The notes under the pieces were generated by a model. It searched no databases. It saw only the letters and a list, made by a program, of their open reading frames with translations, and was not told where the DNA came from. Made by a program: the position numbers and the translations under genes. Of a stretch of DNA of 28,176 nucleotides, positions 15,647 to 27,903 are shown piece after piece. Within the stretch, counting starts at the first letter, position 1. Each line of letters opens with the position of its first letter. The stretch is taken from assembly GCA_900095095.1 (NCBI GenBank), contig FMBT01000654.1:1-28176 (forward strand), read 5' to 3'. Origin of the DNA: Fragilariopsis cylindrus CCMP1102. Taxonomy: Eukaryota; Bacillariophyta; Bacillariophyceae; Bacillariales; Bacillariaceae.

Positions 15647-17719
15647 TTATCCGGCGGTTGGTTCCACCCGATACTGTATCTTTTTCTTGTTATTAATATT
15701 CACCATATTATTATCATGGTCCAACGAAGTTTCGGTGACGTACTTCGAGGTCGTCGTCGTCGATGACGATGTCATCAACAGCACGTCCTCATCGATAGAA
15801 ATTGCCTGGCAAGCAGTCATAATTGACAATGTATTGATCCGCAACCATACTTTTTGTTCAATTGCCAATACCTCCTCGCTTCGTTGTTGTTCTTGTTCTT
15901 GTTCTTGTTGCTGGTGATGATGGCTGTTATTGTTGTTGTCATCAATAGACGACGATGCAGTAGACGCTGCTGCTGCTGTGGTCAGAATTTTCGTCGTCGT
16001 CGTACCGGTATTATTGTTATCATTGTTGTTGTTGTTGTTGTTGTTCTTGTGAGCTGTATAGTGAGAGGATGTTCTTAACAAAGGTAGTTGAGGATCGACT
16101 GCCATCCATTCAATCCGAAGATTTCGCTTTCCTGACGTCCATGCCAAGCTGAGTAAGACAACTGCAGCCAGACTACCAGCCGAATTATCTGAAGGACGAT
16201 TATTCTTTTCGGTACTTACTGTTTGATTATTGTTATTGTTATTGTTATTGTTATTGCTGCTGTCCTTGTCTTCCTGGTCGGCGTTCTTTTTAGTGTTACT
16301 ATCCAAAACCGGCAAAGACGAGGACGAACAATGTACGTATGCTAACATTCCGTATACGGAAGGACAAGAATTTTCATCTCCTAATCCTTCGGCTAACCAG
16401 TGTTCGAGCTGTAACGAAGATGTTTCTTCTTCGTCGTCATTATTATTTTCTTTTTCCCCTTCTTCTAGATTGCTATTATTATTGCTATCAGTATTATTGT
16501 CAGTATTACTACTATTACTATCACGACGGTGATTATTTCTTATATTATAAACTTCTCCATCGAAAGTAGCGTTGTTGGGTTGGTTTTGTTGATGTTTATC
16601 AATTTTTGGTTCTTCGTCGTCATCTACCACCGCATTCTCATCATCATGATCTTCCTCTTCCTCCTCATCATCATCATGCTCTATGTTGGTTATGGGTGTC
16701 ATTCGTTGTTGATGTTGTCGTCGATGACGGCAACGTTCTTCAGATCTTTGTCGACGATACCAATGAGCAATCGGTGCAGCATCGCCAGCGTGTGCAGCTC
16801 GAAATGTAATCCATGAACTTTTTTCCTTCGTTAAATATTCCCGTGAATCATTTTCATTTTCATCTTCGTGATTGTCATTATCACCACCATTATCGTAAAT
16901 AGTTTCATTATCGTGCTTCTCCCTCGCTTCAAACACTTTTGCTTTCCCTCTACCATTATTTCTTGTTCTGTTATCAATACTTGTAGTGCTCTCTCCGGTA
17001 ACAACGACGTCGACGACGGCAGCGCTTTTTTTCTTTGTGCTATCACTATTGTCGTAATTGATTTTGTTCATTTTCTTGTTGTGGTCTTCATTTTCACCAC
17101 CTGGTTGCTGTCCTTCTAATACTAGATTGTTATTGTTATTTTTTCTGTTTCCATTATTATTCCCGATTGAAACAAGATAAAGGAGAGCACTTTCTAAATC
17201 CCAAACATAATCTTGTTGCTGTTGTTTTAATTTATTTTTTCCATTCCGACTATTTTTACTTGTAGTAAAAGTGTGGTGACTATGACATTGATTGTTACGA
17301 GAGTTCATCGCTGCTGCTGCTGCTGCTGCTTTTGGTGTCCCCATCTTCCTCGTCGTTGAACTTTTATTACTGGTTGCGTTATTTGTAGTTGTGACACCGA
17401 CACCTACTACCAAATTCCTCATTATTCGAGTATTATCAACTTTCTGACTGTCGTTCTTAGCGTTGGCGTTGGCGTTGGCGTTGGCGTTGGTACATTTGCC
17501 GTCGGTGGCGGCGGCGATTATTTTGCTAATAGTAGCATCGGCTCGTACTTTCTCTTGAGATTTTTCATCCCGTTCGCTCTCTTTATTGCGTTTTTGATGC
17601 CCTTTTATTCCGTCGTCGTCGTCGTCGTCGTCATCATCATCATCGTTATTGTCGACTTGGGCATTGTCACGTTTTTTTCGTGCCTCACGATCCTCTTCTC
17701 CTCCAGAAGAATTGACCAT
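15647..17719 (-). CDS. GNAT-like protein fragmented by long low-complexity inserts
   Basis: Single exon, 690 residues, of which well over half are Asn, Asp, Ser, Thr, Gln or Glu runs. Conserved islands are DYVWDLESALLYLVSI (about 170-185), WITFRAAHAGDAAPIAHWYR (303-322), LEHWLAEGLGDENSCPSVYG (438-457), LAAVVLLSLAWTSGKRNLRI with EWMAVDP (517-543), and VLAIEQKVWLRINTLSIMTA with CQAI (617-640). In order, these match the strand and helix plan of a GNAT N-acetyltransferase: the RxA..D start, the central beta strands with a VDP turn, and the C-terminal helix. The canonical acetyl-CoA loop (Q/RxxGxG/A) is not visible, so activity is uncertain. Inserts fall between islands, where loops would be. No targeting signal is seen; Asp10+ and Lys-rich N-terminal sequence would suit the nucleus or cytosol. 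It shares a 524-bp promoter region with the histidine kinase. Confidence 0.6.
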   Translation of the reverse strand: MVNSSGGEEDREARKKRDNAQVDNNDDDDDDDDDDDGIKGHQKRNKESERDEKSQEKVRADATISKIIAAATDGKCTNANANANANAKNDSQKVDNTRIMRNLVVGVGVTTTNNATSNKSSTTRKMGTPKAAAAAAAMNSRNNQCHSHHTFTTSKNSRNGKNKLKQQQQDYVWDLESALLYLVSIGNNNGNRKNNNNNLVLEGQQPGGENEDHNKKMNKINYDNSDSTKKKSAAVVDVVVTGESTTSIDNRTRNNGRGKAKVFEAREKHDNETIYDNGGDNDNHEDENENDSREYLTKEKSSWITFRAAHAGDAAPIAHWYRRQRSEERCRHRRQHQQRMTPITNIEHDDDEEEEEDHDDENAVVDDDEEPKIDKHQQNQPNNATFDGEVYNIRNNHRRDSNSSNTDNNTDSNNNSNLEEGEKENNNDDEEETSSLQLEHWLAEGLGDENSCPSVYGMLAYVHCSSSSLPVLDSNTKKNADQEDKDSSNNNNNNNNNNQTVSTEKNNRPSDNSAGSLAAVVLLSLAWTSGKRNLRIEWMAVDPQLPLLRTSSHYTAHKNNNNNNNNDNNNTGTTTTKILTTAAAASTASSSIDDNNNNSHHHQQQEQEQEQQRSEEVLAIEQKVWLRINTLSIMTACQAISIDEDVLLMTSSSTTTTSKYVTETSLDHDNNMVNINNKKKIQYRVEPTAG

Positions 17720-18243: not shown

Positions 18244-21200
18244 ATGGTGATGGCTGACTCGTCAATTTGTAAAGAAGAAAAGAATCTTGAAAGTACTGAC
18301 GACGACCACGACGACGACGATGACAAGATGAAGGATACGAAGAAGAATATGCATGTGCCTACGTCTACTACGTCTACGTCTACACCTAGTACGACGTCTA
18401 CAAAAGGTCATACACGTAATAAACCATTCTATGGTGACCTTGTTTGTGCGGTTGCATTTACAGTTGTTACTCCTATTGATGGATGGAAGGCAGCGATGAC
18501 ATGTCAACAGGAACATTACGATACAGATACAACAACAAGTGATGATGTTTGTACAGAAAGGATATTTGGTTTGTGTCAAACAGCTCTATTATCTGTAACG
18601 TTTTGTGCATTATATGGTGGATTGAATTGGATTTCATACCTCCATCATTCGAAAAAATATTCCTTCTTTGCCTTCCTTAGTGGTCTTTGGTTATGTGCCT
18701 TCAATAATTTACAACAATGGCCGTATGCTGGTGAATGTGTTATGTACGTCTTTTTCCTTTGTTTCTGTTTCGCCACGACTTGGAAAATAATTCGATACTA
18801 TATACTAGTGCAACGAGGAACTACTACCGGTATCTCTTCGCAGCTTTGTATACTTTTTTGTTATATGAGTATGCAGGTTGCCATTGATTCAGTTTCTCAC
18901 AATATTTATCCTCTCTCTATCTATCTATCTATCTATCTCTCACACACACTCGCACACGCACACACGCTCTTTCAAAATAATCAATCATAACAGTACATAC
19001 CAATTTCATGGTGTACTTGTAGGATGCCTTTCGAATGGAAAATTGTCATTCAAGGACCAAATGATTCGTATGGTACTCATGTTCGGTGTTGCATCGTATG
19101 TTTCGATTAGAAGTCCTTTTTCTGTTTACTGTGAAGATGTACTCCCATTATTGGGTGGACCGGTCCTATTATCGATAGCAACACTTGCTGCGACTCGATC
19201 TAACGTATATTGGAATTTATTAAAAACAACGAATTGGAACTTACTAACAGTACAGGGTGCACGCTGGGTCCTTGCTGGTATATATATGTATCATACAGCT
19301 ACTGATTTATTATCGATCCATAATAATAATAACAATAATAATAATGCTAACGTAGATGATAACAATATACGAGCAGCACAGGAAAAACTTATTGCTATTA
19401 CGAAGGCTGCATTTATTGCATGTGTCGGTGTAGGTGCAACTGGTGCATTTCAAAATGAAATTGATTTGAATGAACGATTAGAAGTTCTTGTCCAGAATCG
19501 AACAAAAGAGATACAGGAAAAGAATGATAAATTACATATGGTAGAATTAGCTCTACGAGCAAGTGAAACCGCAATCGCTATCACAGATTCTAATTTACGT
19601 TTTATCTGGTTGAATGCGGCCTGCGAAGAAATCTCGACGAAGAACATTGATGCTGCTGCTACTGCAGCATCAAAAATAGCACCGACTAAAGGAGGAGCAA
19701 TATCGACAGGGAAAAAAATACAAGGACAGCATCAAGTCTCGTCGCAGTCGTTCTTAGGTAGAACGATAGTGGAAGTATTAGCACTTGAAACTATCCTTGA
19801 TGAAAAGAAATTAACTCGTGCGTTTGCATCGCATCGGAGAGAAGACGAGGTATGTATCAACGAAATGATTTTCCGTTTAGAGGTATCACCTTATGCATTT
19901 GTAGACAACAACGACGATGACGACGACGACGACGACGACGAATCCGTTGCAGCAGATCACAAAGATGCGAGATCAAAACGAATAATCAAAAAGAAGAAGA
20001 ATGATGATAATGGTAGCAATAGATATTTGGTAGTCTTCAAGAATATAACAGCCGAACGGGCACGAGAAGAGGCAGAGAGGACCGCACAAGAAGAAGCTAT
20101 GTTAGCAAAGGCGATGGAAGATTCTATGGTCACACTGACGGTGAGTTTATCATTGTTACTATTTGGTTGTTGGGTTGGTTTATCTGCTTTCTTTCCTTCC
20201 TTCCTTCTTTCTTTCTATTAGCTTCCCAATGAACCAACTGCCTCACATTCATTGGTGTACTATTTCTATACTATTATTATTTATTCATGCAATTAAATTG
20301 AATACAGCACGAATTGCGAACTCCTATGCAAGGCATCATGGGAGTCACTAGTATGCTTCTCCAGGAGAACAAAAAGAAAGATGAAAAACAGACCGATACA
20401 ATTCTTGCTGAATCGTTGAAGCTTATTATGGCTTCATCGGGATTGCTTCTGAATCTAATCAATAATCTACTTGACGTGAAAAAAGTGAATTCCGAAAGTA
20501 AGACTTGTTTTGTGTGTGTGTGTGTGTGTGTGTGTGTATTGATTTATTTATCATTGGCTTGATCTTCTCGCAAAAGATGAATTTTGTTCTTCATAATCGA
20601 ATGCATGTCCTGTCCGGTTTTTACCGAATTGTTATTCTTACGTATGTTTGTCTATGAATTGTCTTCTTCACGAATCAAATCACCTTATTACACATAGTGA
20701 TGGATTCATTCCCTATGTCGTCAGTCATTGCCCGGTCGGCCATCAAAGACACGATCGACTTCTGTCAACCCCTCGCTTCGATATCAGGCGTTTCTGTGGT
20801 AACTGATTACGGAAATGGCAGGAAAAATGATTTTATGGTCGTATCGAATGCTTTGCGGTTGCAACAAGTGAGTAAAATTAGTTCCTGCAATGGTGATTAT
20901 TTTCTCTTTTTTGTCCATTCTATACTCCATCTTACCAATATCCTCCTGCAATTTCATTTTGCTCTTTCAGGTTTTGATCAATCTTGTCTCGAACGCTATC
21001 AAGTATACAGAAGAAGAAAGTCAGATTTGTATTCGAATTCGACCGACCATCATGACTGATGTTGAATACATGATAGACCACGCTCTCGCATCATCCCGAG
21101 ATGATAATTCTAACGATGGTGTTTCAAAGAAGGACTTGTCTCTTTCTAACCATTCCGTCCTATGCTTCTCCATATCTGATTGTGGTCCCGGTATTGCTCC

Positions 21201-21945
21201 TCATCAAGCAGATCGTTTATTCCGTCGCTTTGCTCGGTTGGATAATAAACCCACCCGTGCTCTTGGTGGCGGCAATAAAGTTGGTCAGCCATCGGGGACT
21301 GGACTTGGTCTGAACTTGTGTCAGTTATTCTTGCATAGAATGAATGGAGAAATATGGGCCACGAACAATAGTAATGGAATAGGCTCGACATTTTCCTTCT
21401 TTTTACCCCTTGCAATTGATAATAATCCTAATATCGACTCAAGAATCACCGCTCCTGTGGAAATGTCGAACAACCGATGCAGATCTTTTGAGGATCTTTC
21501 GCTTACCACGTCTCAGTTGAGAATTCTTTTGGTCGACGACGTACTCATCAATCGTAAGGTCATTGGAAGGATGGTGAAACTTATTGGTATCGTGGATATT
21601 GTCACGGTCGACTCGGGTGAAAATGCACTGATCGAACTGTTTAAAAATGGCCCGTACGACTTGGTCATAAGTGATCTTCAAATGCCAGGTATGTCGGGGA
21701 CAGAGTTGTGCGAAGCGATAATGGCGGACACCAACGGTTGTTTGATTAGAAAACCTGTCGTTGTGGGTCTTACAGCCGACACGAGCGTAAAAGTTGCAGA
21801 AAACTGTAGTGTTGCTGGAATGTCGGCTGTTATGTATAAACCAATTTCAGTTATAGAGATGAGAGACTTTTTTGGAACGACTGTCGGACGGCTAAAACCA
21901 GGAGTTTGGTACACGAGCAATACCGAGGTCCTGGCCGCTCAGTAG
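18244..21945 (+). CDS. Hybrid sensor histidine kinase (multi-TM, PAS, HisKA, HATPase, receiver)
   Basis: Exons 18244-18868, 19023-20140, 20308-20497, 20698-20867 and 20971-21945; all four introns are GT-AG (154, 167, 200 and 103 bp). Product 1025 residues. An acidic and Thr/Ser-rich N-terminus precedes about eight hydrophobic segments (roughly 60-360, for example DLVCAVAFTVVTPIDGW and IRMVLMFGVASYVSI). A coiled coil (LNERLEVLVQNRTKEIQEKN) leads into a PAS domain (ALRASETAIAITDSNLRFIW to YLVVFKNITAERA) with a poly-Asp insert. The H-box is HELRTPMQGIMG (His582), the N-box LINLVSNAIKYTEE, and the ATP lid DCGPG (771-775) and GTGLGL (810-815). The receiver has DD (890-891), phosphoacceptor Asp936 in LVISDLQMPGMSG, Thr969 and Lys991. 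All residues for autophosphorylation and internal transfer are present. Ligand and output are unknown. Unsplit reading fails at each intron. AATAAA occurs at 21975-21980, about 30 bases after the stop. Confidence 0.9.
18911..18966 (+). repeat. (CTAT)n and (CA)n in histidine kinase intron 1
   Basis: CTCTCTAT units pass into a CA-rich tract inside the 154-bp intron (18869-19022), taking up about a third of it. The acceptor TTGTAG|GA follows at 19022. Confidence 0.85.
20511..20537 (+). repeat. (TG)n in histidine kinase intron 3
   Basis: About 13 TG units start some 13 bases after the donor A|GTAAGA at 20498. The placement is like the TG tract in the lumen protein gene. Confidence 0.88.
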
Positions 21946-22477: not shown

Positions 22478-24307
22478 ATGGGAAATAACACAAGAAGCCG
22501 AGGCTTCACCCTCGTAACGGCGGTGGTGGTGACAATGGCGATATCTTCGTGCTCTGCGTTCATGTCTAGAAGTACTAGCAGAAGCAGCGCTGTTCGATCT
22601 CTTTCCGATACGGCAACAGATGGGTTTACCTCTGACGGTGCAAAGACCCAAATAGGAAACGATTCCTTTCTAAATGAAGATCTTATGGCTCGCGCTCAAA
22701 ATGGACCGGGAGTTGTCAATAAGGAGAAGCTCAAGATTGGAATCGTCGGTGCTGGATTAGCTGGAATGATCGCTGCAATGGACTTAGCTGATGCGGGCCA
22801 TCAAGTTGAAATGTTCGAATTACGACCCTTCGTGGGAGGTAAAGTCAGTTCATGGCAAGACAAGGATGATAATCATATTGAAATGGGTTTACATGTGTTC
22901 TTCGGGTGCTACTACAATCTATTTGGTATTATGAAACGAACGGGTGGTTTTGATAAGAACTTACGTATCAAGGACCATGTACATACATTTGTCAATGATG
23001 GAGGGAAATTAGGTGCCCTCGATTTCCGATTCCCTATTGGTGCTCCCATTAGTGGTCTCGCGGCATTCGCCGCCACCGAACAATTAGGTATAGAAGATAA
23101 GTTCCATAATGCGGTCCGTTTGGGAACATCTCCCATCGTCCGTGCCTTAGTCGATTTCGACGGTGGAATGGATATGGTCCGAGAATTAGACGATATTACC
23201 TTTACCGAATGGTTCACTCAGTTAGGTGGTAAACGAGGGAGTTTAGATCGGATGTGGGATCCTATCGCGTACGCTCTAGGATTTTTAGATTGTGATACTA
23301 TTAGTGCTCGTGCTATGTTGACCATTTTTATGCTCTTCGCTATCCGGACCGAAGCCAGCGTCTTGAGGATGCTGGATGGTAGTCCCCAAACGGGCTTACA
23401 CGATCCCATCATTAAGTACCTCGAAGATCGCGACGTTAAAATTAATCTTAAAAGTCCATGTCGGGAATTAGTTCATGATTTAGATCCCGAAACGGGCTTA
23501 CCCACTCGTGTGCGTGGTATCAAGATCGGCGCTAAGAATGTTTATCACGAATTCGATACAGTTATTTGTGCCCTTGATGTTCCCGGTATCAAAAAGGTAT
23601 TACCAAAGAGCTTTCGTCAATACGACATGTTTGACAAAATTTACGAGTTAGAAACTGTTCCTATTGCTACCGTTCAAGTTCGATTCGATGGTTGGGTGAC
23701 AGAACTAAACGACGATGCTCGTATGATGGACATTTCGGGTGATCAAAGTGACGGTCGAGGTGGTGGTATCGACAACTTGTTATATAGTGCTGACACTGAA
23801 TTTTCATGCTTCGCTGATCTCGCCGTGACAAGTCCAGGGGAATACTATAAGGAAGGAGAGGGAAGTTTGATCCAGGCTGTCTTCGATGCGCGTGCCACTA
23901 AACGATCCGAAGAACAATTGGTAGAGGATTGTATCGCACAACTCCACAAGGTCTTCCCGTCCTCAAGCAAACTCAACTGTACCTGGTCGAGTGTTGTGAA
24001 ACTTGGTCAAAGTTTATACCGAGAAGCTCCTGGACAAGACAAATTCCGTCCGAAACAAGCGACACCCATTTCTAATTTTTTCCTTGCCGGTTCCTACACG
24101 TACCAAGATTATTTAGACTCTATGGAGGGTGCAACAAGATCTGGTTTGATGGTTGCAGATGAAGTCATTGCTCGAGCCGACGGACCGAATGGTCTCAAGG
24201 CTATGTCTGTAAAGTTACAGGCGGAGGCAAAGGCAGAGAAAGAGTCCTCAGTAGAGAAAGAACCTGAAAAGGAGAAAACTTTATTCTTTGCTGCGGAAGC
24301 GGCTTAA
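22478..24307 (+). CDS. ZDS: Zeta-carotene desaturase, plastid
   Basis: Single exon, 609 residues from ATG 22478. The open frame extends upstream only to a GTG, and the ATG gives the expected presequence, so the ATG is chosen. A signal peptide (FTLVTAVVVTMAISSC) ends CSA|FMSRS, the Phe-led plastid motif, followed by a Ser/Arg transit region. The FAD-binding Rossmann motif is KIGIVGAGLAGMIAAMDLAD (86-105) with FELRPFVGGKVSSW. Other ZDS landmarks are HIEMGLHVFFGCYYNLF, WDPIAYALGFLDCDTISARA, FMLFAIRTEASVLRMLDGSP and the C-terminal FAD loop FFLAGSYTYQDYLDSMEGAT. It desaturates zeta-carotene through neurosporene to lycopene, using plastoquinone, in the plastid. It is distinguished from phytoene desaturase by these motifs and by overall resemblance to plant ZDS. 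A Lys/Glu-rich tail (KAEKESSVEKEPEKEK) is an unusual extension. Confidence 0.93.
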   Translation: MGNNTRSRGFTLVTAVVVTMAISSCSAFMSRSTSRSSAVRSLSDTATDGFTSDGAKTQIGNDSFLNEDLMARAQNGPGVVNKEKLKIGIVGAGLAGMIAAMDLADAGHQVEMFELRPFVGGKVSSWQDKDDNHIEMGLHVFFGCYYNLFGIMKRTGGFDKNLRIKDHVHTFVNDGGKLGALDFRFPIGAPISGLAAFAATEQLGIEDKFHNAVRLGTSPIVRALVDFDGGMDMVRELDDITFTEWFTQLGGKRGSLDRMWDPIAYALGFLDCDTISARAMLTIFMLFAIRTEASVLRMLDGSPQTGLHDPIIKYLEDRDVKINLKSPCRELVHDLDPETGLPTRVRGIKIGAKNVYHEFDTVICALDVPGIKKVLPKSFRQYDMFDKIYELETVPIATVQVRFDGWVTELNDDARMMDISGDQSDGRGGGIDNLLYSADTEFSCFADLAVTSPGEYYKEGEGSLIQAVFDARATKRSEEQLVEDCIAQLHKVFPSSSKLNCTWSSVVKLGQSLYREAPGQDKFRPKQATPISNFFLAGSYTYQDYLDSMEGATRSGLMVADEVIARADGPNGLKAMSVKLQAEAKAEKESSVEKEPEKEKTLFFAAEAA

Positions 24308-24993: not shown

Positions 24994-27903
24994 TTATAGT
25001 GGTGAATACTCTAAATTTTTGAAATCATCTGCAAAAACCTCGTTGATAATGCTTCTTGTCTGTTCGTTCTTTGCAAATAGCATATAATTAGGGTAATTAG
25101 GTGTTTTGTTGCTGTGGTCCATTTCGAGTGGACCACTCTTGAGACATGGAATATGCTCGGCAAGCTTTGTTATATCCTTGCTGAGATCTTCAAGATGAAA
25201 AATTTCCTTTACGACCATCTCACCCTCAGGATCTACAAGCCAACTGGTCTGTGTACTGCTAAAGGTATCGTACACTTCGTTCCCGTGTCCGGCTGCACCA
25301 AACCTATAATGACTGGCGGTGTTAGGCGGGAAAGTCTTGTATACGTCGAGGATCCATTCATGGAAGGCGTCCATCTTTTCTTCATCGGACATTGAATCAA
25401 GGTCGAGCGTTGGAATCAGTCTCTCCTCACACTTATCGGTATTTTCTTGACAGCTACTAGCAAGGAAGAAGAAGTTGGACACTTGTCTAGCAAGAGGGTG
25501 TCTAACCACAGCGAATGTATATGCATCGTTCCAAGTCTTTCTTCCGTAATGATCTATATATGCATGTGCCGTTGCGTGAAAGGCACGATGGAAATCTTCG
25601 TTTTCGTCCCACCATTCACCTCCGTAATACTCTTCATCACACCGCTCTTCAAACATGCGGATGAGGCTTGTACCTCCGGTTTTGTTGATGTGTACAAATA
25701 AGAAAGGGATCTCCTCCTCATCATCGTCGCCATGCGCATGTTGTTGCTGCACAGCTTCATCTTCGGAATCAGATTCGTCATCATCATCATTCGAATTAGA
25801 TTCTCCTCTAAGAGTGCTACCTCCCTGCTGGTAGTAGTCTTCAACAATGGCAGCCGCACCGATGGTAAACCCGTGGTTTAACGTACTATGACCCCAGTAA
25901 TTGGGTATGTAAAGCATATCTCCGGATTTTTGGACGCACGTTAAAGACATCTTCTCGTCCAGTACTTCTGACACTTTCTCCGCCGACATACCAGTAATTC
26001 CTTTATATAATGGTGGACCAATCTTCCACTGTTTTGTTCCAACGTACAGGATGTTAAAGGCAGCCTCATGCCAGTGGTAGGTAGCGCCAGATGCGTCGCC
26101 ACCAAAGAAGACTTGCCAAGTAAGATCATCTCTATTTTCGACGAGCGGGAACCAATTCTTGATGGTACGGAATCCACCTCTCGGATCAAGAATATCACCA
26201 TCGTAATCCGGGTAAAGCTCTTCAAGATCCGATTGATGGGGGTGGAGGGCGTGGATCATCTTTTTTTCTGGCATCTCCTCACAAACAGCTCCCTTTTCCA
26301 TATCAATAATGGACATGTCCTCACTACATAGCTCTTGCTCGCTTAAAGGAGGGTATGCCGTGGGACCTACTTCAAATAATTCATTTGGATTGAATTTGTC
26401 TAACTTCTCCCAACTATTCTTAGAGAACATATCAAGTTCCATCTCGTCAGCTTGTCCTCTCATGGCTACTGGACGACCAGTAATAAAGTAATCCCTGTAG
26501 AAAACTTCCGCTGACAACTCCCCGTCGATAACATCAAAATCACAGCGGTCGTGATCAAACGAAGTCACAGAAGTTTCACTCCATCCTGATCTTTTGCCAC
26601 TCTTGTTGCCGTGGTGGCTATCTCTATGCTTTCTCCGTTGCTGACTACTGGCGCTTTCTTCAACTACTTCAATACCGAGGACGTTCCTTGCATCATAAGG
26701 ACGGATCGGTGAACCTTTCATCTTGACGTAATCTTCAACGGATCGATCGTACTCATCAATAATCATGGAATTATCTCCGTTAGTCAACACCTTCACAATC
26801 TCAGCGTACCCACCTCGAATAGCCTCCTGTATGGCATTGAGACTTCTACTACTACCCGGTTCATTCTGTACCGGTCTATAGAGAGGATCAAGACCGTGTT
26901 TGACTATCAACTTTTCCGCAACGAGGAGCATCCCCGCCTTGGCAGCCTCGATTAGCATGACGTCGTCGACAGCGACCTTGTCTTTTGGTTGGAGCTCCTC
27001 CATACTCCTTTCAATTGGGTATTCTTTCTTTTCTCGAAGACTGTTTTCGTTATTAGAAGGTCCCTTATCACGACCGACCAATACGCGATCAACGCACTCA
27101 AGCATACACCTAATTTTATCTGTAAATTTTATCTCGTCAGCATCTCGGAAAAAGGTAAAATCAATCTCATCATTGTAGCCTCTTTTGGGTCTCGTTGTTA
27201 ATACGTCGTCGTAGTGACAGGGGCCGATCACGGGTTGACTATATCCTTGATGATCACCCGGTGCAATATATCCTAATCTTGTCAAGTCAGCATAACATAC
27301 CTCATCTTGATCTTCATTGACAATGCCACCATGAAGATACTCGTGAGCATCGATGGCAGCTAGTATTTTTTTTGGTTCGCCCGAAACATCATTGCCGGAC
27401 TTGTCACGAATAACCCTCTCGACTCCCAAACTTTTAGTAGTAGAACCTGATTTTTCATCGGTTAGTATCCTACCTTGATTATTATTATCTATTTTGTTTT
27501 TATAGCACCATGTATAAAGATTTCCTGATATACCATTAATGTGGTGGTTCTCAGTACACTTTCCTCCTCCTAATGAGGATGAGGATGTGGATGAGGATGA
27601 AAGGTGGCGTGCCACCGCGGCTATAACAACCAGTGATAGAATTATCCCAATGATTACAACAGATATACCGATGAACAGTGACGATCTTCTACTACTACTA
27701 CTGCCTTTAACACGGCTTCTTCCGTCACGACCATTCCGGTATCGACTCTTTGATTGGTAGGCACCAACTGGGTCTAACGTACTGCTATTATTAGTGCTAA
27801 CACCACCATTATTCTTCTCTCGACAATGAGGCGACGATCTCCTTTGACGGACTTTTTGATCCATGCCGTTGAAGCCGTTGGAGCCGACGAAACCGTTTGC
27901 CAT
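24994..27903 (-). CDS. Type II membrane protein: ankyrin-like, JmjC/cupin_8 and sulfotransferase domains
   Basis: Single exon, 969 residues. A basic cytosolic tail (1-74) precedes one membrane helix (about 76-98, FIGISVVIIGIILSLVVIAA), so the bulk should face the ER/Golgi lumen. A Cys-containing region (116-270) follows. Residues 315-390 look like ankyrin repeats (VMLIEAAKAGMLLVAEKLIV; AIQEAIRGGYAEIVKVLTNG). Residues 455-692 form a JmjC/cupin_8 fold: TGRPVAMRG, YHWHEAAFNILYVGTKQWK (609-627) and GDMLYIPNYWGHSTLNHG (661-678). The metal site would be His610, residue 612 (His rather than Asp/Glu) and His672, with Lys in GTKQWK for 2-oxoglutarate. After an acidic linker (700-731), residues 732-969 are a sulfotransferase. 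The 5'-phosphosulfate loop is FVHINKTGGTSL (736-747), and the 3'-phosphate site is FAVVRHPLARQVSNF (797-811). Predicted chemistry is oxygenase plus PAPS-dependent sulfation of a secretory substrate; both are inferred from folds. Confidence 0.82.
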   Translation of the reverse strand: MANGFVGSNGFNGMDQKVRQRRSSPHCREKNNGGVSTNNSSTLDPVGAYQSKSRYRNGRDGRSRVKGSSSSRRSSLFIGISVVIIGIILSLVVIAAVARHLSSSSTSSSSLGGGKCTENHHINGISGNLYTWCYKNKIDNNNQGRILTDEKSGSTTKSLGVERVIRDKSGNDVSGEPKKILAAIDAHEYLHGGIVNEDQDEVCYADLTRLGYIAPGDHQGYSQPVIGPCHYDDVLTTRPKRGYNDEIDFTFFRDADEIKFTDKIRCMLECVDRVLVGRDKGPSNNENSLREKKEYPIERSMEELQPKDKVAVDDVMLIEAAKAGMLLVAEKLIVKHGLDPLYRPVQNEPGSSRSLNAIQEAIRGGYAEIVKVLTNGDNSMIIDEYDRSVEDYVKMKGSPIRPYDARNVLGIEVVEESASSQQRRKHRDSHHGNKSGKRSGWSETSVTSFDHDRCDFDVIDGELSAEVFYRDYFITGRPVAMRGQADEMELDMFSKNSWEKLDKFNPNELFEVGPTAYPPLSEQELCSEDMSIIDMEKGAVCEEMPEKKMIHALHPHQSDLEELYPDYDGDILDPRGGFRTIKNWFPLVENRDDLTWQVFFGGDASGATYHWHEAAFNILYVGTKQWKIGPPLYKGITGMSAEKVSEVLDEKMSLTCVQKSGDMLYIPNYWGHSTLNHGFTIGAAAIVEDYYQQGGSTLRGESNSNDDDDESDSEDEAVQQQHAHGDDDEEEIPFLFVHINKTGGTSLIRMFEERCDEEYYGGEWWDENEDFHRAFHATAHAYIDHYGRKTWNDAYTFAVVRHPLARQVSNFFFLASSCQENTDKCEERLIPTLDLDSMSDEEKMDAFHEWILDVYKTFPPNTASHYRFGAAGHGNEVYDTFSSTQTSWLVDPEGEMVVKEIFHLEDLSKDITKLAEHIPCLKSGPLEMDHSNKTPNYPNYMLFAKNEQTRSIINEVFADDFKNLEYSPL

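Follow-up and report, generated by a model that had tools for sequence, protein, structure and literature searches.

Among described systems, the heparan sulfate 6-O- and 2-O-sulfotransferases (Sulfotransfer_2, PF03567) can be compared with the sulfotransferase domain analysed here, to which they show 16–18% identity over a structural alignment; to our knowledge, none of the animal enzymes has a JmjC domain. In layout, the analogue is the heparan sulfate N-deacetylase/N-sulfotransferase NDST, in which two modules on one Golgi anchor act on one substrate. The first module of NDST is a deacetylase, whereas in the present protein it is a JmjC domain, making NDST a precedent for the working mode and not a relative. 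Stand-alone Sulfotransfer_2-like proteins of bacteria and viruses share 20–35% identity with the sulfotransferase domain, and a pattern search of their frames at 36 loci found no JmjC motif (at one of these, L086, the frame is broken and only 32 residues could be read).

On the JmjC side, the comparison is with JMJD8, an ER-lumenal protein that carries an HxD to HxH substitution (PMC5684140). Its histidines H179, H181 and H248 (PMC5684140, PMC9820096) likewise place a histidine where the metal-binding aspartate is expected, as do H610, H612 and H672 of the present protein. The authors of the first report suspect that JMJD8 is perhaps neither a hydroxylase nor a demethylase (PMC5684140), while a later one describes a 2-oxoglutarate-dependent demethylase activity that was essentially eliminated when H179 and H181 were both mutated (PMC9820096). 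JMJD8 consists of a JmjC domain alone behind an N-terminal signal peptide, without a sulfotransferase, and its lumenal location is experimental, whereas ours is inferred; the two proteins are likened by motif, not by sequence comparison. With respect to possible substrates, diatom silaffins are described as containing hydroxylated and phosphorylated lysines as well as sulfated residues (PMC4557024). Both enzyme families are well known, but our searches of an open-access library, including diatom, Golgi, domain-fusion and JMJD8 contexts, found no published description of a secretory-pathway protein that joins a JmjC domain to a sulfotransferase, in agreement with the first-pass annotation, which knew of no enzyme with such an architecture. 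The fusion was likewise not found in the available text of a survey of algal carbohydrate sulfotransferases that has diatom entries (PMC4659905).

The window, i.e., the whole stretch of 28,176 nucleotides that was analysed (contig C378), carries on its reverse strand a single uninterrupted frame, as the first-pass annotation had claimed, running from ATG to stop over 969 codons (Table 1). The frame remains open for 34 more codons upstream of the chosen ATG (1003 codons in total), so that the start codon is a choice. When the window was shuffled 100 times by mononucleotide, no frame exceeded 162 residues, ruling out a chance ORF. Whole-protein Pfam scores are modest (24–36 bits). JmjC_2 (PF08007) matches residues 603–678 with 29.2 bits (E = 7.6e-7, cut-off 22) and Sulfotransfer_2 matches residues 732–825 with 28.9 bits (E = 1.5e-6, cut-off 22), while JmjC (PF02373) lies barely above its cut-off of 24 (24.4 bits, E = 4.1e-5). 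Of the earlier assignment to JmjC/cupin_8, the JmjC part therefore stands; Cupin_8 (PF13621) stays under its cut-off of 27.4, with 12.7 bits (E = 0.12) for the whole protein and 17 bits for the domain alone.

Table 1. Features of the fusion gene, with positions in the window.
Feature	Residues	Position	Strand	Evidence
JmjC-sulfotransferase fusion ORF (protein P0001), predicted type II membrane protein	1-969	24994..27903	-	969 codons + stop; architecture repeated at second locus
Predicted signal-anchor transmembrane segment	76-96	27616..27678	-	Hydropathy; orientation inferred by positive-inside rule
Ankyrin-like module	308-415	26659..26982	-	Ank_2 match ~317-376, under cut-off; dN/dS 0.18 between paralogues
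JmjC domain	452-690	25834..26550	-	PF08007 + PF02373 above cut-off; hhalign
H610-W-H612, proximal part of putative metal site, His for usual Asp	610-612	26068..26076	-	Alignments; within identical run 605-624
K624, at G-x-K position of the genome's cupin/JmjC proteins	624	26032..26034	-	Alignments
H672, distal histidine of putative metal site	672	25888..25890	-	Alignments
Acidic low-complexity linker	691-731	25711..25833	-	No Met from M663 to M750 (window copy)
Sulfotransfer_2 domain	732-969	24997..25710	-	Pfam, PHROGs, alignment, structure model
5'-PSB (PAPS) loop LFVHINKTGGTSLIR, with K741	735-749	25657..25701	-	Alignment conservation
3'-PB motif FAVVRHPLARQVSNFF, with R801 and S809	797-812	25468..25515	-	Alignment conservation
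H776, candidate catalytic base	776	25576..25578	-	Alignment conservation

A single strong hydrophobic segment, from residue 76 onward (Kyte-Doolittle score of 3.16 for 19 residues; the next best elsewhere reaches 1.52), follows a basic tail of residues 1–75. By the positive-inside rule, this combination suggests a type II protein with a cytosolic tail and with the JmjC and sulfotransferase domains both in the lumen, which supports the earlier proposal of a membrane anchor with both domains on one side. Each locus (see below) encodes 14 cysteines past the anchor, all 14 of which align between the loci, and the sole unmatched cysteine lies in the cytosolic tail. The shared cysteines would fit disulfide bonds in an oxidising lumen. 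From the topology, the compartment may be the Golgi or, equally well, the ER.

Between the anchor and the JmjC domain, the first-pass annotation had placed an ankyrin-like region. Pfam scores for this label are below cut-off, Ank_2 in both copies (14.5 and 12.7 bits against 27.3; E-values of 0.053 for the window copy and 0.2 for the paralogue) and Ank_4 with 12.5 bits against 22.7. We use "ankyrin-like" for residues 308–415 as a description only; the module is well conserved between loci.

A protein search of the genome assembly (67.9 Mb, 818 contigs) located the fusion in four places: the window contig and contigs C533, C688 and C345. C533 overlaps the window over approximately 20 kb at 95–98% DNA identity (98.3% over the gene-bearing part and 95.3% over another part), and its gene copy differs by 7 mismatches in 2,907 aligned bases and has lost a single base at each of three sites, which disrupts the frame. 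The window and C533 (L009–L011) are each exactly 28,176 bases long, despite an overlap of just ~20 kb. C688 has an intact frame of 942 residues, encoding a protein 66–67% identical to the window copy. C345 is 85–94% identical to C688 over four DNA blocks and carries an 890-residue frame that shifts near the C-terminus through one single-base frame change; its linker is 15 bases shorter. Outside the gene, blastn (E 1e-10) of the window against 20 kb of C688 and 14.7 kb of C345 detected no match. We interpret the four places as two loci, with two haplotype contigs for each. At each locus, one of the two contig copies (C533 and C345) has no intact frame in the assembly, and the single-base differences in these copies are either sequencing errors or damaged alleles. 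The fusion is thus found on more than one contig, and its presence at a second, 66–67% identical locus, with each locus on two contigs, rules out an assembly chimera.

The two loci have diverged in the linker and the cytosolic tail and kept the modules. The Nei-Gojobori dN/dS between loci is 0.18 in the ankyrin-like module, 0.16 in the JmjC domain and 0.19 in the sulfotransferase; these values carry no standard errors and, with dS at 0.58–1.0 in these three main modules, are approximate. The ratio is 0.30 between the anchor and the ankyrin-like module, 0.68 for the tail plus anchor and 0.11 for a 31-codon spacer in which dS is saturated (2.0); for the linker it is not calculable. Linker length differs between loci, and the sulfotransferase is in the JmjC frame at both, the 15-base loss in C345 amounting to whole codons. 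In the window copy, M750 is situated beyond the PAPS loop, and with no methionine between M663 and M750 the sulfotransferase part could not start alone with a complete nucleotide site. This argument is restricted to the window copy, since the paralogue's linker contains a methionine, M693, ahead of its PAPS loop.

Profile searches of the genome returned at least 32 JmjC_2, at least 39 Cupin_8 and at least 29 Sulfotransfer_2 stretches, and among the stretches listed no gene apart from the fusion copies has both a JmjC/cupin and a Sulfotransfer_2 hit. Pfam analysis of 10 JmjC/cupin and 10 candidate sulfotransferase ORFs (20 chosen from 40 loci) found none with both domains; 8 of the 10 sulfotransferase candidates match PF03567, and L061 and L063 match nothing at E 0.01. 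Close stand-alone relatives were not found in the genome, where the N-terminal region and the sulfotransferase part match the four copies only. One further stretch was hit by the JmjC part (E = 0.127) and one by the whole protein (E = 0.03, residues 20–106). Viral contigs gave no match with the whole protein or the JmjC part; with the sulfotransferase part, poor patterns recovered none and a better alignment recovered 8 loci. Each of the 8 (L102–L109) is a Sulfotransfer_2-like gene on its own IMG/VR viral contig; L102 and L103 agree in match length and in E-value, and L104 is part of a longer frame of 463 residues. By tblastn, the JmjC part matched no phage and 10 plasmid records, the strongest with E = 3e-5 and 25% identity. 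The sulfotransferase part matched 3 phage records, with E = 1e-3 at best, and 2 plasmid records, of which the better has E = 4e-8. NCBIfam gave one, meaningless match. Sequence searches against solved structures yielded nothing for the whole protein and chance-level matches for the sulfotransferase and N-region profiles. The JmjC profile returned 31 rows with a best E-value of 0.21, headed by glucose-6-phosphate isomerase and followed by JMJD7, FIH, TYW5 and JMJD5 among others; JMJD8 is not among the 31.

The earlier claim of a full sulfotransferase with a PAPS site was supported. Besides the Pfam match, the PHROGs profile phrog_3347 ("Galactose-3-O-sulfotransferase") covers residues 733–968 (E = 3.9e-9), and in the paralogue Sulfotransfer_2 is matched over model positions 7–251 of 252 (36 bits). 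An alignment of 26 sequences (A8/A9: the window copy with 25 of the 36 sulfotransferase loci, 11 having been left out by choice as near-duplicates, for broken or N-terminally over-long frames, or for want of a recognised PAPS-loop pattern) shows H738, K741, G744, R801 and S809 to be invariant and H776 to be present in at least 90%. Across all 36 relatives, R801 and S809 are kept in 34, K741 and H738 in 33, and H776, E905 and Y966 in 35, the misses being L086, with its broken frame, and L087, L091 and L093, whose sequences were trimmed to begin 30 residues ahead of the match, so that the PAPS loop was lost or shifted. We take K741 to be the 5'-PSB lysine and R801 and S809 the 3'-PB arginine and serine of the PAPS site. 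An AlphaFold2 (AF2) model of this part adopts a sulfotransferase fold, closest to the heparan sulfate 6-O/2-O enzymes; Foldseek returned nothing at E <= 0.001, with HS6ST as the best match (0.036). The domain is complete and keeps its PAPS-site residues, and PAPS binding and activity are predicted; most likely, it would transfer sulfate to a hydroxyl of a carbohydrate or glycoprotein.

The JmjC half presents a different picture. Aligned by hhalign with the other JmjC/cupin proteins of the genome, the domain scores a probability of 95.5% over 80 columns. The canonical HxD/E...H metal triad is absent, and both loci have HxH...H (H610, H612 and H672) instead. In an alignment with two bacterial cupin-annotated relatives that have H-x-D (L070 and L073), H610 corresponds to the first histidine, H612 to the place of the aspartate and H672 to the distal histidine, with an arginine opposite K624 in the bacterial proteins. 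Ten JmjC/cupin proteins of the genome have an invariant aspartate opposite H612 and a nearly invariant G-x-K lysine opposite K624, a lysine to which we assign a presumed role in 2-oxoglutarate binding by analogy with FIH. Another 24 JmjC/cupin loci were chosen from the JmjC_2 and Cupin_8 lists, which overlap; some of the 24 are probably alleles (e.g., L030/L034 and L045/L046). The motif could be read at 20 of them and is HxD in all 20. Nineteen of these were in the expected context by pattern, to which L032 was added; L035, L039, L047 and L067 have no readable motif. Strings reading HxH or HxE at L030, L033, L039, L044, L045 and L068 came from short or unrelated stretches, and one reading HxD at L047 from an unrelated frame; all were discarded by eye as non-JmjC.

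Residues 605–624, with H610, H612 and K624 inside, form a 20-residue run that is identical at both loci. The run falls in the segment of the JmjC domain where conservation is highest (94% between loci, against 74% for the domain overall), which argues for a retained site. The domain appears to keep a cupin-type putative metal site with three histidines and the G-x-K lysine, and in this it is closer to JMJD8 than to a standard 2-oxoglutarate hydroxylase. Of the two enzymes claimed in the first-pass annotation, the sulfotransferase is complete, and the JmjC half is without its canonical triad. Structure prediction yielded the sulfotransferase fold; the JmjC fold was not obtained, relatives for its modelling being lacking. 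A single-sequence AF2 model of residues 308–690 had a mean pLDDT of 32, and the JmjC half of a second AF2 model had no ten-residue block above 62.

Taken as a whole, the locus probably encodes a diatom secretory-pathway type II membrane sulfotransferase that has an NDST-like layout and an atypical JmjC domain in its stem. One anchor in a secretory membrane, most likely that of the Golgi, would hold all modules in the lumen, where a Cys-containing region, the ankyrin-like module and the atypical JmjC domain would form a large stem. The C-terminal Sulfotransfer_2 domain would bind PAPS and sulfate a hydroxyl, most likely on a carbohydrate or glycoprotein, and the JmjC domain may either perform non-canonical metal chemistry on the acceptor being sulfated or bind and position it. 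As in NDST, two modules would serve a single substrate from a shared Golgi anchor.

It is quite possible that the JmjC domain is a pseudo-enzyme, acting as a structural or substrate-binding stem only, with sulfation as the sole chemistry. Lumenal sulfotransferases often have non-catalytic stems, and the replacement of the metal-binding aspartate by histidine points the same way. JMJD8 provides a precedent for such doubt (PMC5684140). However, the metal-site strand is more conserved than the remaining domain, and all three histidines and the lysine are kept.

This same conservation favours a truly bifunctional enzyme, in which the three-histidine JmjC domain would be active as an Fe(II)/2-oxoglutarate oxygenase, with a secreted substrate that it hydroxylates or demethylates; the sulfotransferase would then place sulfate on the hydroxyl so formed or on a group next to it. 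H610, H612, H672 and K624 are identical at both loci, three of them within the most conserved stretch (H610, H612 and K624). JMJD8, with the same substitution, is described as losing its 2-oxoglutarate-dependent activity on mutation of both H179 and H181 (PMC9820096), and diatom silaffins bear hydroxylated lysines and sulfated residues (PMC4557024). Against this, the canonical carboxylate is absent, all 20 readable motifs elsewhere in the genome keep HxD, and activity loss was suspected for JMJD8 itself (PMC5684140). We therefore regard a bifunctional enzyme as somewhat unlikely. With HxH...H in place of the canonical triad and differing reports on JMJD8, hydroxylation preceding sulfation is possible but unproven. 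A Golgi-anchored machine with two set steps, hydroxylation or demethylation by the three-histidine oxygenase first and sulfation second, possibly for silica-associated or exopolymer glycoproteins of diatoms, we consider unlikely.

That the halves are separate genes, or the fusion an assembly artefact, is highly improbable: the modest Pfam scores would allow either, and the paralogue's linker methionine, the one point in favour of separate genes, could start a sulfotransferase-only protein, but in the window copy and in C688 both halves are read in one frame, as they are in C345 until near the C-terminus; C533 has the same order apart from its three single-base differences, and neither the methionine-free stretch of the window copy nor the in-frame linker length changes fit separate genes.

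If the locus does encode a secretory sulfotransferase with an atypical JmjC stem, the gene is a concrete, testable candidate for silaffin sulfation, for which we know of no enzyme. It also offers a second, physically linked setting for the question of whether JMJD8-type JmjC domains with three histidines have enzymatic activity.

Several other observations were made in the window and the genome. Between positions 18244 and 21945 on the forward strand, the neighbouring ORFs may be one hybrid histidine kinase split by introns; 20890–21945 contains HATPase_c and response-regulator domains, and the other ORFs of this region have no Pfam match. A 690-residue ORF at 15647–17719 on the reverse strand is Asn/Asp-rich, of low complexity and without a Pfam match. 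Positions 22478–24307 encode a flavin amine oxidoreductase family protein (PF01593), presumably a carotenoid desaturase by resemblance. Elsewhere in the genome, a Cupin_8 ORF with chromo and HMG-box domains (L047:3–3587) is apparently a nuclear JmjC/cupin protein, and the silicon transporter family (PF03842), which points to a diatom as the probable host, is matched by 27 stretches, with scores of up to 757 bits.
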